From Chytriomyces cf. hyalinus JEL632 (lineage: Eukaryota; Chytridiomycota; Chytridiomycetes; Chytridiales; Chytriomycetaceae): DNA of 64,000 bases. A model generated the notes under the pieces. It ran no database searches. It was not told where the DNA came from and saw nothing but the letters and a program-made list of their open reading frames with translations. Shown in pieces: positions 16,559 through 27,100 of the stretch. Position 1 is the stretch's first letter, and every line of letters starts with the position of its first letter. The position numbers and the translations under genes were made by a program. The stretch lies in NCBI GenBank assembly GCA_025435555.1, contig JAIWWG010000003.1, forward strand, positions 558,001-622,000. Reading direction: 5' to 3'.

Positions 16559-16646
16559 AACCGTCAGTCACTCTAATTGGGGCGTAGTCACCTGACTGAA
16601 ATTCATCAAAGAGAAAAATAAACAAAAAAGATCAGAAAGCTGGAAA

Positions 16647-17858
16647 ATGAATGCGACTCAGCTTTTCCGCGCTACTACTGCGCCGACCTCAGCCACAGAC
16701 TACCCGCCACTACAGCAGCAACAGCAGCAACCCTTCCCCATCACACGCACGAACCTGTACGAACCGCGCACTATGCAGAACGAACCCAACTTTATCCTCT
16801 TTTACTACATCGACCTGCCCATCTTCGTCATGGGGACGCTGTTCAACGGATACATACTGCAAACCATCCTACGCAACTACAGTAGACTTGTGCGGGATCG
16901 ACTGGACCGTTGCGTGACGCTTCTCATTGGAACGTACTTTACGTGGAGTGTTGCGGCAACGGTGCAGTACTCTGTGTGGCTGTTTCATGCGAGCTCGTGG
17001 TTCTACCGCCTCAGCGCCATGAGCACGAGCATGCAGATTCTGCTTGTCTTTGGCGCAAACACGTTGATGGTGTGTTGCTGTTCATTGGTGTCACCCGAGT
17101 ATTAGTCAGCTACAATTTTAAACAAACACCAAAAACAGGCGCTCGAACGCTTCTTCCTCATCCGCGACTACTCGGTCCATCAGACCAGCAAACACATCAG
17201 CGGCGTCATTGTCTACATCGGCGTCATGTGCGGGATCATTGTCGCCGTGTTTGTCAGTAGTCCCAGCCACGATGCAATATGGCCGGCGCATCCAGTTGAA
17301 CAAACGATCTGGACCGTCACCATGCTTCTCAGCTTCATTGTCATGAGCGTTAGCATCGCTGTGCTGTACACGCTGACTTTCCGGTATTCATCAAAGATGC
17401 TGCGAGAAGCGTTCGACACCATGAAAATGACGGCTGGGAGTGATGCTATAGTTCATCCACAGAGGGCATCCATTTCGCATCTTCAACTGCAGCGCAAGAT
17501 TTTAAGCAAATGTTTTTTAATGTTTGGAATTGTTTTCTTTTCGTATGCGCCTGAGGCGTTGTCGTTTGTGCTTGTGGTGAGTGTTGATGTTGTAGTTGAG
17601 GATGGATCGAGGAAGGGACTAACGGCATTTCTCTTGCATTTAATAGAGGACGTTAAAGTTGAATCAGTGGGAGCAGCCTATTTTCTGGTTTCAGACCGTT
17701 TCGCGAGTGTTGCTCGTGTTGGATGTTCTGGTGAGAATGTTTCTGACTTGAAGGGGGAGGTAGTGACTGAAGGCAACTCTCTCATTCGCGAACAGGTGTC
17801 ACCAGCATTTGTTTTATATTTTATGACGGATATACGCAGAGCAGTTCTTGATGGGTGA
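16647..17858 (+). CDS. Seven-TM receptor-like protein A
   Basis: Start ATG 16647 with an N-glycosylation site (NAT) and a short poly-Gln near residue 24. TM1 begins at FILFYYIDLPIFVMGTLFNG. TM3 ends in a split motif: the exon finishing GANTLMV is joined, after an intron at about 17070-17139, to ALERFFLIRDYS, so an E-R-F stands where rhodopsin-like receptors have D/E-R-Y. TM4-TM6 follow. Two more introns (about 17577-17646 and 17734-17795) give RTLKLNQWEQPIFWFQTV, LLVLDVLVSPAFVLYF and MTDIRRAVLDG. The intron model is supported residue by residue by the paralogue 250 nt downstream. Predicted plasma-membrane receptor; ligand unknown. Confidence 0.8.
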
Positions 17859-18072
17859 TGAATGCGCGCGTAAGAATAAATTAATTGACAGTCACAAACC
17901 ATCTCTGGCAACTCAACAGCAATTACTCGCTCACACTTGACATTCATTAGTTGCTTTGAAAGACTTCCCAGAACGGTGCGTGCGTGGCCTTGGATGTGGG
18001 GGAAATTTCATAGCTGCGTGGACAGAAATTGACCCACAACCACAACCGCCACCACGGACGAAAGAGAGGAAA

Positions 18073-18114
18073 ATGAATTCGGCTGCTGCAAATCTATCAC
18101 AAAAAAGTACGTAA
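18073..18114 (+). promoter_or_regulatory. uORF overlapping the start codon of receptor B (TAATG)
   Basis: A 13-codon upstream ORF starts with ATG at 18073 and ends in TAA at 18112-18114. The final A is the first base of the receptor B start codon, giving TAATG. Such an overlap could allow termination-reinitiation. I tested reading the stretch as a tiny intron (gtacgt...actcag), but the phase does not fit. Confidence 0.4.
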
Positions 18115-19067
18115 TGCCACTGACTCAGTCCACGGCGGTGCTCGAAAACAAAACAACTGCCCCACCGCCTGGGAACCTCTACGAACGACGCACGATGCAG
18201 AACGAGCCCAGCTTTATCCTCTTTTACTACGTGGACCTTCCCATCTTTATCCTGGGCGTTCTTTTCAACGGATTCATCTTGTACAGGCTGGTGCCCAAGT
18301 CCAAGAGCTTGCTCAGCGAGAGGCTTGAGAGAGTCATGACACTGCTGTTTGCCGCCTACTTCAGCTGGAGCGTCGGCGCCACGTTCATTTACACGATTTG
18401 GCTGTTTCATGCGAGCGAATGGTTTTATAAACTCAGCGCCATCATCACCAGTGTCCAGATTGTGTTGTTGTTTGGCGGGAATACTCTCTTGGCCCTCGAA
18501 CGCTTCTTTCTCATCAAAGAATTCACTTTCGATCAAAGCCGGCCGTACTTTCTCGGAGCATGCTGCTCCATTGGAGCCATGGTGGGCCTCATCGGGGCGC
18601 TGTTTGTCTCAAGCCCTAGCTACGACGGCATCTGGCCGGCGAACCCTGTGGAGCAGTCCATCTGGACAGTGAGCATGCTGTTCAGCTTCATTGCAATGAG
18701 CGTTGCCATCGTAGTTCTGTACACGCTGACGTACCTGCACTCATCCAAAATGCTTCGAGAAGGCCTCGAGAAGGCCAAAGCGGCAGACCCGGTATTCGCC
18801 GACAGCTTGGTGCATATCCAGTTGGAGCGCAAAATTCTCAAGAAATGCTGTATTATGGCGGGCAGTTTGTTCATGTGTTATGTGCCGGAGGCGTTGTCGT
18901 TTATTCTTGTTCGCACGTTGCATTTGGATCAGAGGGAGCCTAGGCTGTTTATGTTTCAGAGCATTGCACGGGCGTTGCTTGTTTTGGATGTGATTGTTAC
19001 GCCGGCGCTGATTCTTTATTTTATGCCCAGTTTAAGAAGGGCCGTGTTTGGAGGGAAGGTGGTGTGA
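18114..19067 (+). CDS. Seven-TM receptor-like protein B, intronless paralogue of A
   Basis: A single open exon of 317 codons. It aligns along its whole length with receptor A: LYERRTMQNEPSFILFYY against LYEPRTMQNEPNFILFYY, WLFHASEWFYKLSA against WLFHASSWFYRLSA, and LLVLDVIVTPALILYF against LLVLDVLVSPAFVLYF. TM3 ends NTLLALERFFLI and the tail begins FMPSLRRAVFGG. The cytoplasmic C-tail is very short. The two genes lie head to tail and are plainly a tandem duplication. This copy lacks all three introns of A. The pattern of an ERF motif after TM3 and TPALILYF in TM7 supports a rhodopsin-like fold, but this is divergent from animal receptors. Confidence 0.85.
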   Translation: MPLTQSTAVLENKTTAPPPGNLYERRTMQNEPSFILFYYVDLPIFILGVLFNGFILYRLVPKSKSLLSERLERVMTLLFAAYFSWSVGATFIYTIWLFHASEWFYKLSAIITSVQIVLLFGGNTLLALERFFLIKEFTFDQSRPYFLGACCSIGAMVGLIGALFVSSPSYDGIWPANPVEQSIWTVSMLFSFIAMSVAIVVLYTLTYLHSSKMLREGLEKAKAADPVFADSLVHIQLERKILKKCCIMAGSLFMCYVPEALSFILVRTLHLDQREPRLFMFQSIARALLVLDVIVTPALILYFMPSLRRAVFGGKVV

Positions 19068-20448: not shown

Positions 20449-23157
20449 ATGTCTGAGAGCACAAAGATGGAGGCAGAACCCACGCCTGTCCAGACAGAAG
20501 CACCAGCTGGCCCCGTCGCAGCCGCCTCAGCCGTCCCAGTCGCGCATTCGAATGCAAAGATTGTTGAAGGTACTTCACCGTCGATTCAACAAATGTTCCT
20601 TAACTAAAAACAAAAAATAACTCCTTGTGCTCCCAGAGTTTCAGTACTTGCTCGAAAAGTCACAGCAACTGTTTGCGGGACTAAGGTGAGAAGAGGACTC
20701 CCAGTCACGCGGAGAGGAGGGTGTGAAGAGCGGAAGTCGTTGTGTTCTATTGCGCAGCGAGTTGCCCTTCTTCTCTCCTTTCAACCTTCCGGACATGAAA
20801 ACCGATTGAAAAATATGCTTCCTTGCCGTTATTATTCCACAAGGATTCGGATTTTTTTATTTACCCCCCGCGTTTTTTTTCTTCTTCTTCGTGCGCAGAG
20901 ATCTGCCCCCGACTGGAAAGAATTGGCAACCGTACTTCCAGCGCACATTTGAAGTCTACACGAAACTGTGGAAATTCCAGCAAACGCATCGGTGAGTTTT
21001 TCAGAATTTCGGTCGATTATAAATTTCTCACACAACCGTTCATGCCGCAGTTTGGTCCTTGAAAACAAGGACTTGTACGGACTCAAGCGTTATGAGATTG
21101 GTGAAATCGCATCCAAGATTGGGCGTGAGTCTCGGCAATTTTTTAGTGCATCGATGCACCGTGTTGACGATACCATTTTTTCTTTTAGAACTGTATTACC
21201 ACTACTATTTACGAACTAGTGAAACAAACTATCTGTACGAATCTTATGTCTTTTACGAAGCAATCCGCGAACGCCAATACTTTCGGGATGTCCTGGATGC
21301 CAAAAAGTATGTTTTTTCTCCAAACACTCGAACTACACTGGCCGATCATTTCACTGATGATTTCTATTTTAGCCCTCCACTTATGATCAAGAAGCTGCGT
21401 TACTATGCCCGTTTCATTGTCGTTTGCCTTCTCTTGAACTCGAACGAAACAATCAAAAAGTTGATGGAGGAACTCACGGGTCTGATTGACGAATACACAA
21501 AAACGTTTAAACCGAGCGACGGTGGCGAATGGAATGTGGTTCTCTCTGAAATCACCACGTTTTTGGAGGTATGCGTGTGTGGAGTCGAACTTGTTGCGGT
21601 TCAAAGATACCGAAAAAGACTGATTTTTATTTTATTTTCTCCACAGGCTGAAAAACGACTTACTCCCGTGAACCCGGAAGACCCAAGCGCTCACATCATT
21701 CCACCTCAATCTCGACTGCCCCTCAGCAAGCACACGCCGCTTGTTGTCCCCGGTGCAGATGGCGCACCCCCGCAGCCCAAACTCAAGCTGCAAGAAGCCA
21801 TTCTCGTTGGAAACTATGCGAATCAAATTAAATTCAGTGAATTGACGTTGGACATGTACCGCATGCTTCAGAGTCTGGAACGTGAGCCGAGCGTGTCTGG
21901 AAAAGGCGGAGCAATGGCGCCTCCGCAGCATGATGCGATGGCTGTGGATGGTGAAGCGGGTGGTGCTGGGGATGAGAAGGGGGTGTCGAGTAAACGATCG
22001 AATCCTCACAAGTATCTGTTGTATAGACCCACTCTTGCGCAGTTGACTTTGTACATTGCCACTGCTTTTAAGGTATATATTTTTTGTTTGTGTGTGAAAC
22101 TGTTTGCTGGAACGCCTCTTGTGCGGGTCTTTTTCTTTTCCAGGACATCAATGAGAACTCGGCGCTTCTTTTGTACCTCAGTGCAGATGGATCCAAGCGC
22201 CAAGGTGCAGAGACGTCAGGATACAATGGCGGTGTTGCGACAGCAGTCAATTACTCGCGCAGCAAGCCAGACAAGACGGACGCGGATCAGACGAACCTGA
22301 TTCACAGTCTCCACCCCGGAGATTTAGTTCCTTTCATGCGAAAACCTCTCTTTGTTGTCATTGATAGCACCAACAGTGCTGCGTTCAAGGTATTACCTGG
22401 ATCTCGCTTTTGTGTCCTGCATGTGTCCTCGCGCTCATGCATTTTTCATTCGTCGATAGTCCACACCCCATGTGTTTAACCAGGCGTTTGTTTGTTTAAT
22501 GAGCCCCGTTGAGTATCCCTCCACGTTGAAAGGTACACACGTGTCGATTTGCGTGGATTTTTCAAGCCACTCAATTTTTTCTGTTGCTGCCCAGACACAT
22601 CTCCAATCGGGAGCTTGTTTACTTTGTTTTTGAACAGTCCAATCAAAGGGTTTGCCTTCATCAACGACATTCCCGACACGCAAGTCGACACGTGGAGCAA
22701 ATGTTACCCCATCTTTACGCAGATGGAGAAAATGATATCAGACGCTTTCGACGCATCAACAACCTTGGGTGAGTTTTTATTATTATGACTGGTTTCTGGA
22801 AGTACGATCAGCAAAAAAATGTTAAAACATGTAAATGCACGGTATTCCCAGACAAGTCATTTAAGCGATTCCTGCAGGATGACTTTTTGAGGCAGATTTT
22901 GGTGCGATTTGCTGTGTGCAGTGGGTTGTTGTGTTCTCATGTTGGGTTTAAAGAAGCCAAGGTGACTATTTTTTCGTGTGTGGTTTTATACTGCAAGGCT
23001 GATATTTTTGTATTTTCTCAAGTATCTTCCATGCTCGGAGCCAGCATTGCCATCAGCTTCGTATTTGACTCCAGAGGTGATTACCAAGTTCCAAGAGCTT
23101 GTTGGGATCGCGAATGTTGCCCAGTCATACAACTTTACGGCGGATGCAGTGCAGTGA
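20449..23157 (+). CDS. SCAI homologue (suppressor of cancer cell invasion family)
   Basis: Start ATG 20449 (MSESTKMEAEPTPVQ). Following exons give EFQYLLEKSQQLFAGL, NWQPYFQRTFEVYTKLWKFQ, YGLKRYEIGEIASKIGQLYY, YESYVFYEAIRERQYF and LRYYARFIVVCLLLN. The middle part has KLKLQEAILVGNYANQIKFS and KYLLYRPTLAQLTLYIATAF. The end has KPLFVVIDSTNSAAFK, SPIGSLFTLFLNSPIKGF, QDDFLRQILVRFAVCSG and LTPEVITKFQELV. These blocks in this order are diagnostic of SCAI. In animals SCAI represses MRTF/SRF transcription and acts with 53BP1 in DNA repair. About ten introns; the stop TGA is at 23155-23157. The fungal role is not known. Confidence 0.88.
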
Positions 23158-23559
23158 TTTCCATTTTTCTCTTCTGCCTTGTTTTTTAAGGTGTGTGTGG
23201 TGTTTGACAAGGGTTCAGAATACATTTTCTCATGGTCCAAAGACAAATAGTTCGGGTTTGTTATGGTTGTGAATGAGAGAGTGACAGCAGGGATAAAATC
23301 CTGTTGTGCTAAACTCTTATGTTCTGTCGGTTCTCTAATACGTCTCAAGAGTTTATCTCTCAGTGTTCATAAATATAATTATCTTATGGAGAAGGGGAAA
23401 TATCGGACTATGAAAGACCAAGTTCATACAAAATGACAGTATGCCTGGTGAGTATTTGTCGCTTTTGCTGTTGTACCACTAAAAAATTGGAACCTTTCAT
23501 TGACTGAGAGGGTACAGAGTGTGCAGTACGTGTGAGTGTGAGAGGGAGTAGAGACAGAA

Positions 23560-24012
23560 ACCTCAGTCATGCAACGGACGGGCAGATTCACCGGTGCGTT
23601 CCAGACCGAGACGGAGGAGAAGGGGAAGGGAAGAGTGGGGGGAGGGGAAGACCAGCAGCGAAGAGTAATCTCCGTTGAGTTAACCACCTCTCTCCAAAGA
23701 AAGAGGAGGCCAATCGCATAACTGTGCTATATCGAACTGCCACTGCCAGTAACGGCGACACCGCCCCCGGTAAGACAAACAGGCACCCGTCCAAGTGGGC
23801 ATAGAAGGTGTCCCTCCATCTTCGCCGGCACGAATGCCTTGTTCTTTACGTCCAAGGAGGCGGGGGCATTCGGCTCGTTTCGCCAGGCTCTTTCAGCCGC
23901 TTGATCGGAGAATTTCCCACGGGCAGTAAGGAGAAGAGGCTGTGGACACTGTCTCCCGACAGTGTCCGGTGCGCTCAGTGTGTGGACCCGTTGGTCGATT
24001 CTTTCGTGCTGG
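23560..24012 (-). ncRNA. Candidate structured RNA, RNase P/MRP RNA-like
   Basis: No convincing protein gene fits this gap. Read on the minus strand it contains, in order: CAACGG (23993-23988); ACACACTGAG (23983-23974); a perfect 10-bp hairpin closed by the GNRA loop GGGA (23967-23944); GTGGGAAATTCTCCG (to 23906); a GGCA-TTCG-TGCC hairpin (23838-23827); GGAACGCACCGGTGAAT (to 23586); and CCGTTG (23577-23572). CAACGG pairs with CCGTTG (P1-like). ATTCtCCG pairs with CGGtGAAT (P4-like, one U-U mismatch). The hairpin sits where P3 belongs, and GGGAA before P4 recalls conserved region I. A TATA-like box is at 24046-24055, and T6 lies at about 23481-23486. The two weak points are that terminator, 90 nt beyond P1, and the lack of a clear P2. 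Telomerase or another RNA is possible. Confidence 0.45.
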
Positions 24013-24101
24013 TCTTAGAAGAAAAAGAAAAAGAAGGAAGTGCGACAATTTTTATGTGTTTCTGTGTTGCGATCATCGGGCCTTTTTGAACAAAACAGCG
24101 A

Positions 24102-27100
24102 ATGCTTGAACAGGACTTGTACGCGAAAACTGTTGACGCGTTTCAAAGCAAGCATCAGAAGTGGACGTGTGATCTGGTACGAGCAATATCCCCACAGACT
24201 GACCATCTCACGCACTTTAACAAACCAACCCAGTACAGCTGAATATCCACCGAGACGGATGCTTGCTAATGGAGCGAGTGTATGCACATCGAAGCTGCTG
24301 TAAAGCCATTCCCCAGGTTCTTTGACCAAACAAAACACAACTTTGCGTTGCTAAAAAAAACTGCAATTCAAAACAAGGCACAAGCCGATCTCGATGCCGA
24401 TCACGCGTCACGGCTGAAACGCGTGACAAACCAAGTCCTTAAACCAGTTGTGCGCATAATTCGCGAATTGAACCAGTTCCGCGAAACCAGCGTAGACACA
24501 GTTGTCGATATCCTCAGCGCAACTTCTCTCGCAATTAAGAACGCGAAACTGTCGGCGGGGCTGGATTTGTTTGTGATGGAACCGTATTTGGAGGCGCTTG
24601 CGAAATTGTTGCATTTGTTTGCGGGGCTGGATGCCATCAAAGATGTGAAGGGTGGAATGAAGAACGACTTTTCTTTGTATAAAAGGTGCGTTTTCTTCTG
24701 CGAATCTCTGTGGGGGTACATTTTAAGCGAGATTTTTCGTAGAACTCTGTCAGAAGAGAGTGCCGAGCTTCGCAAGGAGCACCAGTCGCTGTCCTTCTTT
24801 CTGGGACACTCAGATCAGTTTTGCGGGACATTGAAGAAACTGCTCCAGAACCACGTTCCCCGATACGAGATTATTCTGATCCATTTGATTGAGGCTGGAT
24901 GCTCGGCTGTTTCGATGCCGGATCCATACGCGTCGAAAGATACGTGGCTGAAGGTATTCATACTCTTCCATTTCTCAGCCGTCTCAAACGCAGAGACTCC
25001 TTTCCCAGGCTATTTCTGTTGCCATTTGCTTAGTTGATGGCAATACAAACGACTCTGACATAACACTGCGAAAAGACTTTAAAACAGCGCTCGTGCTTCG
25101 ACTGCTGAAGGTCGGTTTCTTTTTCTGCCAATGCATCTTAAAAACAGATGCATTTAATGATGTTAACTGTTGCTGCTCAGGCAAACCCCGTTGTTTGCTT
25201 CCTTCCCGATGCGTACACCGATTTACGCGCCATCTACCGCAAATCAATCCATTTTGTTGCCGCTGCTGACCGTGATGCATCCGCCACAGCAAAGACTGGC
25301 TTGAATCTGACAGGTCAGATGGAGCAACTAAACTCTGATTACGGCACATTTACGGCCACTTTGGATGTAATTCTGTTTGAGGTGAGTTCCATCGCAGATC
25401 TCCATTTGTTTTGACTTGTTGTTTCAAACGCAAGATTGCCCACGTTCGAGAATCCAAACTGTTGCGAGTGACTCCGGAAATCGGGGAAGCGCTGTACAAT
25501 GTTGCTGTGAACGGGCTCAAACTAGTCAACCGTTGCCGGGACTTGATTTTTAACCACCTCGCGCATAAGCTCCTTAGTCCTGCGAAAAGAGGGGTAGATG
25601 GGGTACCGGATGATGTCGAGGAATACGAGCTGGTTCGTACGTGTTTCCAGCACCACTGCAATCCAACTAACGTTGATACTTTATAAAGGCCATCCGGTAC
25701 AACTTGTCATCGGAAGATAAAACTGCTCTCGCTCAGGTTCCGAAAATGGCGCTTTGATATCTTCAGACAACCCACTCGCTCATCCCTTTTTCTTCTCGTC
25801 CACGCAATGTTCAGGCTATTTCGATTGCTAAATCCACCGTATTCGAGTTCAAAAACTTGGATCCACATCTCAACCAGCTCCTAGAAAACACGATCCAGTT
25901 TCGGATGCACAGACTTCTCGCCACAACAGTCACTGATGCGCTGGAACATGCGCGGAAAAGGGGAAAAGCGGTTCAAAAAGTTTTGCAAATGGCTCGCGAT
26001 TTGGGATCTGATTTGTGCGAAAGGACTGCGGCAGAGACTTGGAATTTACTTCTGGATGGGAGATGTCCGGTGTTTTCAATGCCGCAGGTAACTTTCATAA
26101 GAATGTGTCAACTGGGCCGCTGACTTACTGCAACACATACTCACAGCTCGAGTCATTGCGACTGCTTCTGGAAATTTGTGTGTCGGAAAAAACTATTGGA
26201 ATGAAGCAAGGGTTCTTCCATGAGCGGGATTTAAAGGCGACGCACATTGCCGAAATTCGCGCGTTTCTGATCGATGCCCGTGAATATGTTCAAGTGCTGG
26301 ATCTGAAGAGTAAGTTGAAGTGCGTTTATTCTATCAGGAGCTGACCCAGTTTTGTCCAAAAGAAACCACATTAACCTGCTCGAACTTTTCCAATCTGTGG
26401 TTCAAGGAGTTTTACCGAGATTTAAGCGACCAACCGCAGGTGAGAGAGAGAGAGGGAGATGCAGTCATTTTCTTCCTATTACTCTGTTTAAAATAGCCAC
26501 AGTTCTCAATCAGAGCGTCACTACCTTGGATACTGGCTGAACACGTCTTGAAATCCGATAACCCCGATTTGAAAAGGTTTCGACAATAGATTATTCCAAT
26601 TGGTTTGACTAGTACCTGACTATAAAAGTCGGTTTTCTCGGCTGAGCAGATGTTTACTGTTCCCGTTCGAAATTTACAATGATTGCTTCGATCGCGTTCT
26701 TGATGAAATGCGGTCTGCGCATTTGTACCATGAACTTGCGGCCGAGGTTTACACTGTTTTTGCGGAACTGGGATCCTATGAAATACTGACTTTCGCATTG
26801 ACTCGTTTGCTCCAGGCGCAAACTGGGTTCAACATGTTGATGGAACTGCTGGCTGAGAAACTGTACGGTCACTTCAAATGCACAGCTGCCCTGTATTTTC
26901 TACCGCCAGAATACAGCAAAGAACCTGACTCATTCTATCGCCTCAATCCGAATATCCCGATTTCAGCGTATGCTGCCGTTCTCTCCTGTCAAAACTACAA
27001 AGTAAACCACCACCGCTCAAAACAATCTTCGGCAACATTTAACACACAACATCTAAACAACAATAGTTACTCGACCAAACCATAAACCTCAGCACGTTAT

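Follow-up and report, generated by a model that had tools for sequence, protein, structure and literature searches.

A predicted RNase MRP RNA gene between SCAI and CYFIP in the chytrid Chytriomyces cf. hyalinus

The locus and the covariance-model match

RNase MRP is a standard eukaryotic enzyme that cuts ribosomal RNA precursors. The window analysed here is a stretch of 64,000 nucleotides from the genome of Chytriomyces cf. hyalinus JEL632, in which an earlier note had proposed, from the letters alone, an RNA gene of either RNase P or RNase MRP on the minus strand, lying between SCAI and CYFIP. What surrounds the proposed gene? Pfam supports both neighbours. SCAI is represented on the plus strand by frames at 21023-22300 (PF12070, E 1.4e-76) and 22513-22788 (E 2.3e-8), and by a third plus-strand frame at 22773-23189 that, with 20.9 bits, falls short of the cut-off of 25. 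On the other side, the plus-strand frame 26609-27085 matches FragX_IP of CYFIP (PF05994, E 2.4e-8), and a plus-strand frame closer to the RNA gene, 24270-25037, matches the CYRIA/CYRIB Rac1-binding domain with 18.9 bits (cut-off 23.1) and also Nop52, both under the cut-off. If the start of CYFIP lies in 24270-25037, the RNA gene and CYFIP are arranged head to head. Further away on the plus strand, two similar frames stand in tandem, 16596-17858 (with a stop or an intron at 17105) and 18033-19067; they share the motif TMQNEP.FILFYY and look by eye like multi-pass membrane proteins. ARAGORN, run with bacterial settings, found no tRNA in the window.

The check that the note had proposed, a covariance-model search, gave a clear answer. 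An Rfam scan of the whole window matches RNase_MRP (RF00030) to 362 nt of the minus strand, 24013-23652, with 71.9 bits (E 5.6e-18) against a gathering score of 50 bits. The match covers the model at full length, from position 1 to 266 of 266, and is the only Rfam match in the window above its gathering score. It bears out the strand that the note had given and one of its two candidate families. Its ends are the bounds of the Rfam match and not mapped transcript ends; on this measure the gene stops about 80 nt before the 3' end that had been claimed. Because of this match, the minus strand of 24013-23652 almost certainly encodes the RNA of RNase MRP, and the gene is, as judged from its sequence, an ordinary one of a known family. 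How far can the score be trusted? The same model found a match in one of 14 control genomes, that of the bacterium Thermotoga maritima, under the cut-off, so weak RF00030 scores alone would mean little. In the chytrid genome itself (37.8 Mb, 242 contigs) RF00030 matched once, with 24 of 341 candidates scored, and a DNA search with a 501-base query found only the window's own copy. A permissive Rfam scan of 22800-24600 also returned a weak match to HtrA_thermometer (17 bits, gathering score 52).

The folded RNA

The minimum-energy fold of the 362 nt reaches -149.2 kcal/mol, compared with a mean of -125.0 (sd 5.8) for 100 dinucleotide shuffles (z -4.16), and none of the 100 shuffles folds as low. 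The element as a whole is thus far above chance. P1, P3a, P3b, P4, P8 and P19 are all present in this unconstrained fold, while P2 and P5 are absent from it; P2 cannot appear in a nested fold because it crosses P4 as a pseudoknot. The individual pairings proposed before the covariance search fare less well when taken by themselves. The letters of CAACGG (23993-23988) and CCGTTG (23577-23572) are there, as are those of ATTCTCCG (23913-23906) and CGGTGAAT (23593-23586), which form seven of eight pairs, but neither pairing stands clearly above chance. A count of perfectly complementary 6-bp pairs separated by 300 nt or more gives nine for 23560-24060, and an average of 4.9 (sd 2.9) for 300 mononucleotide shuffles.

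Both assignments give way to others within the Rfam match. P1, which the note had drawn as CAACGG/CCGTTG, is instead formed by CCAGCA at 24012-24007 and TGCTGG at 23657-23652; all six pairs form, and in the free fold a bulged continuation adds five more pairs, extending the helix to 24001 and 23663. The 3' strand of P4, for which CGGTGAAT had been put forward, is CGGAGA at 23674-23669 on the CR-V side, and it pairs at six of six positions with TCTCCG at 23911-23906 in CR-I, in the Rfam alignment as well as in the free fold. The 5' strand lies within CR-I itself, GGGAAATTCTCCG at 23918-23906 (RNA GGGAAAUUCUCCG), which aligns to the Rfam consensus GGGAAAGUCCCCG and contains at 23918-23914 the GGGAA that had been expected before P4. 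The note had seen no clear P2. One exists: AATCG at 24000-23996 and CGATT at 23716-23712 form five of five pairs, in the same register as the P2 of the Rfam alignment, and the 3' strand begins one base after CR-IV.

Do these helices hold where the letters differ from the family? Paired changes were counted by hand, for this one sequence against the printed Rfam consensus line only. On that count five of the six P2 pairs of the RF00030 model form, four of them with both sides changed, and the sixth does not form; in P4 all five core pairs form, one carrying a double change (C-G to U-A) and one a change on a single side (G-U to G-C). P5 is less certain. An ATC directly after P4, at 23905-23903, could pair with GAT at 23733-23731 (three of three pairs, two of them changed on both sides), but this partner was picked by eye and could be due to chance. 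Of 10000 shuffled versions of 23745-23724, 3460 contain a GAT, and the hand-drawn helix sits three columns off the consensus GUC of the Rfam alignment.

The P3 arm occupies 23990-23920 and was located by motif search, local fold and free fold. It has the form of two helices around an internal loop, which the available text of the 2007 survey PMC1796607 gives as a feature of MRP RNA. P3a pairs 23990-23986 with 23924-23920, and P3b is the 10-bp hairpin with a GNRA loop that had been noticed from the letters, found at 23967-23944 with the loop GGGA. On the internal-loop side stands ACACACTGAG (23983-23974; RNA ACACACUGAG), likewise as it had been described. After P4 comes P8, a GGCT-GAAAG-AGCC hairpin at 23898-23886 recovered by motif search and by the folds, with its GAAAG pentaloop at 23894-23890. 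The S-domain follows at 23885-23735, with P9 and a long P10-P12 stem (local fold -61.3 kcal/mol); its Rfam alignment has many non-standard pairs, and the exact pairing is uncertain. The GGCA-UUCG-UGCC string reported as a hairpin is indeed present in this domain, at 23838-23827, but the minimum-energy fold pairs most of its bases with 23782-23792. CR-IV, AGTTAT (RNA AGUUAU), is identified at 23723-23718 by the Rfam alignment and by motif search, and in the free fold it is paired with nearby bases. A P19 hairpin at 23711-23682, seen in the full fold and in a local fold of 23711-23676 (-17.1 kcal/mol), completes the set.

Promoter and terminator sequences

Which polymerase would transcribe this gene? 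Polymerase III is thought probable for MRP RNA across eukaryotes in the available text of PMC1796607. Upstream of the gene there is no TATAWA box within 100 nt. The TATA-like sequence reported earlier, CATAAAAATT, is present, but one base away from where it had been placed, its true position being 24056-24047; it supplies a CATAAAA at -43, counted from the matched 5' end, and is a weak candidate for a TATA element. Downstream, no run of four T occurs within 60 nt. The T6 run that had been pointed out does exist, at 23486-23481, and is the first run of at least four T on that side; the distance from the matched 3' end to its start is 166 nt, and its role is doubtful.

Other small RNA genes of the same genome offer a comparison. 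U6 has six genome matches (47 of 2176 candidates scored) and U2 has 11 (46 of 767), several of them sharing contigs; for U2 the promoters compared are those of the eight matches, of 11, that have loci. The U6 loci carry TATAAAT at -52 in five of six cases and end in T5-T6 in all six; the remaining copy (L008) is without TATAWA within 100 nt upstream. The U2 loci carry TATATAA at -35 or -36 in all eight compared, and seven of the eight have no T4 run within 60 nt. The MRP gene is without a TATA box like that of the U6 or U2 loci, and in lacking a T-run it is closer to the U2 loci than to the U6 loci. In yeast, NME1 may be transcribed by polymerase II.

An snR80-like sequence lies on the minus strand at 23533-23400 and contains the T6 run. 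The match to snR80, a box H/ACA snoRNA, is sub-threshold (22.6 bits, gathering score 40, E 1.5). Its fold has two larger hairpins with ACAACA between them at 23474-23469, which we take to fit box H; the first two bases of this ACAACA are paired. The region is not accepted as a gene, being under the gathering score and no more stable than its shuffles (fold z -0.07). Could the MRP RNA nevertheless be cut from a longer precursor, probably a product of polymerase II, which would also contain an snR80-like snoRNA at 23533-23400 and do without polymerase III termination at a T-run? This is a long shot; if it were true, two RNAs of rRNA maturation would come from one transcript.

RNase MRP, RNase P and the protein partners

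The RNase MRP reading has to be weighed above all against nuclear RNase P RNA (RF00009), whose catalytic core P1-P4 with CR-I, CR-IV and CR-V is the same. The two families belong to one Rfam clan, and a lower-scoring match of that clan does overlap the gene; within the clan the MRP model scores higher, and the other match was dropped in its favour. What, then, distinguishes the two RNAs? In the available text of PMC13184271 (2026), conserved MRP features that differ from RNase P are a 3-bp P5 adjoining P4, a P8 pentaloop GARAR and a CR-IV of six nucleotides, whereas P RNAs have P7 and a CR-IV of eight. Two of the three MRP features are found here: the GAAAG of P8 is a GARAR pentaloop, and CR-IV, aligned to the MRP consensus, is six nucleotides long and not eight as in RNase P. 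The available text of PMC1796607 likewise describes MRP RNAs with GARAR, and with AnAGUnA placed 0-3 nt before 3'-P2; ACAGTTAT matches this motif, and ACAGUUAU stands 1 nt before the 3' strand of P2. According to the same source some ascomycete fungi and some protists are without GARAR, so that finding it is informative, and failing to find it would not have settled the matter. A search for an RNase P RNA elsewhere in the genome gave no match, and this shows nothing either way, since scoring covered 15 of 2794 candidates and none of the control genomes matched. With the pentaloop and the short CR-IV both on the MRP side, RNase P RNA is a highly improbable identity for this gene.

Might the gene be a decayed copy instead, or no RNA gene at all? 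The weak TATA element and the missing nearby T-run are what a pseudogene of the MRP RNA gene could be expected to show, but this is the sole copy found, and P1, P2, P4, P8 and CR-IV look intact, which makes decay more improbable still than RNase P. The other possibility is that the sequence belongs to a protein gene or to the untranslated part of SCAI or CYFIP. Four frames that run from stop to stop, 85-100 aa long, do overlap the gene; the two of the four that were searched, 23727-24014 and 23424-23726 on the minus strand, gave no Pfam hit at E 0.01. Set against the strong structural match to RF00030, a protein-coding or untranslated origin is vanishingly unlikely.

Compared with RF00030, the RNase MRP RNA family, whose members treated in the available text of PMC13184271 are human RMRP and S. 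cerevisiae Nme1, the chytrid RNA covers 266 of 266 model positions and has P1, P2, P3a and P3b, P4, P8 with GARAR, P19, and the conserved regions CR-I, CR-IV and CR-V. It differs in its length of 362 nt versus a model of 266 positions, with insertions in P3b and in the S-domain, in its uncertain P5, and in having no T-run near the 3' end. The gene can be annotated with confidence as encoding an MRP RNA, and its core looks intact. A narrow literature check found no paper on MRP RNA in Chytridiomycota. The gene is an ordinary one, and its value lies mainly in annotation: one well-supported MRP RNA is added, and its genome encodes SCAI, CYFIP, POP1 and a NEPRO/Rmp1-type protein as well.

Family and fold are shown by comparison of the sequence, and expression, assembly and cleavage would be expected to follow the family. 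The product would be the RNA subunit of RNase MRP. Its catalytic domain would consist of P1, P2, P3, the pseudoknot core at P4 with CR-I, CR-IV and CR-V, then P8, P19 and possibly P5, and its second domain of the long S-domain stem. Together with POP1 and other proteins, including a subunit of NEPRO/Rmp1 type, the RNA would cleave the first internal transcribed spacer of precursor rRNA.

Are such partners encoded in the genome? A genome profile search finds POP1_N in two stretches of a single contig, with E-values of 1.9e-17 and 1.9e-13, each of them above the cut-off score. NEPRO is, in the available text of PMC13184271, the MRP-specific subunit corresponding to yeast Rmp1. The contig of the window carries, at a distance of about 190 kb, an exon that matches NEPRO_N with 30.6 bits, over the cut-off of 24.9; the same exon reaches 24.6 bits against RMP1, under the cut-off of 27. 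In the RMP1 search one control genome, Escherichia coli, also matched under the cut-off, and the match to RMP1 therefore carries no weight by itself. Searched against PDB, the NEPRO-like exon hit immunoglobulin J chain and an interferon, seven times in all and always weakly (E 0.27 to 0.54); these hits are taken as chance. Among other RNAs of the genome, U3 has one match of 30 bits, under the cut-off of 34, and SRP RNA has none with the metazoan model RF00017 (26 of 574 candidates scored). The frame after the NEPRO_N exon matches NEPRO_N weakly (14.6 bits) and is taken as the following exon; these NEPRO/Rmp1-type frames stand at 996-1737 of locus L018, near 390 kb of the window's contig.
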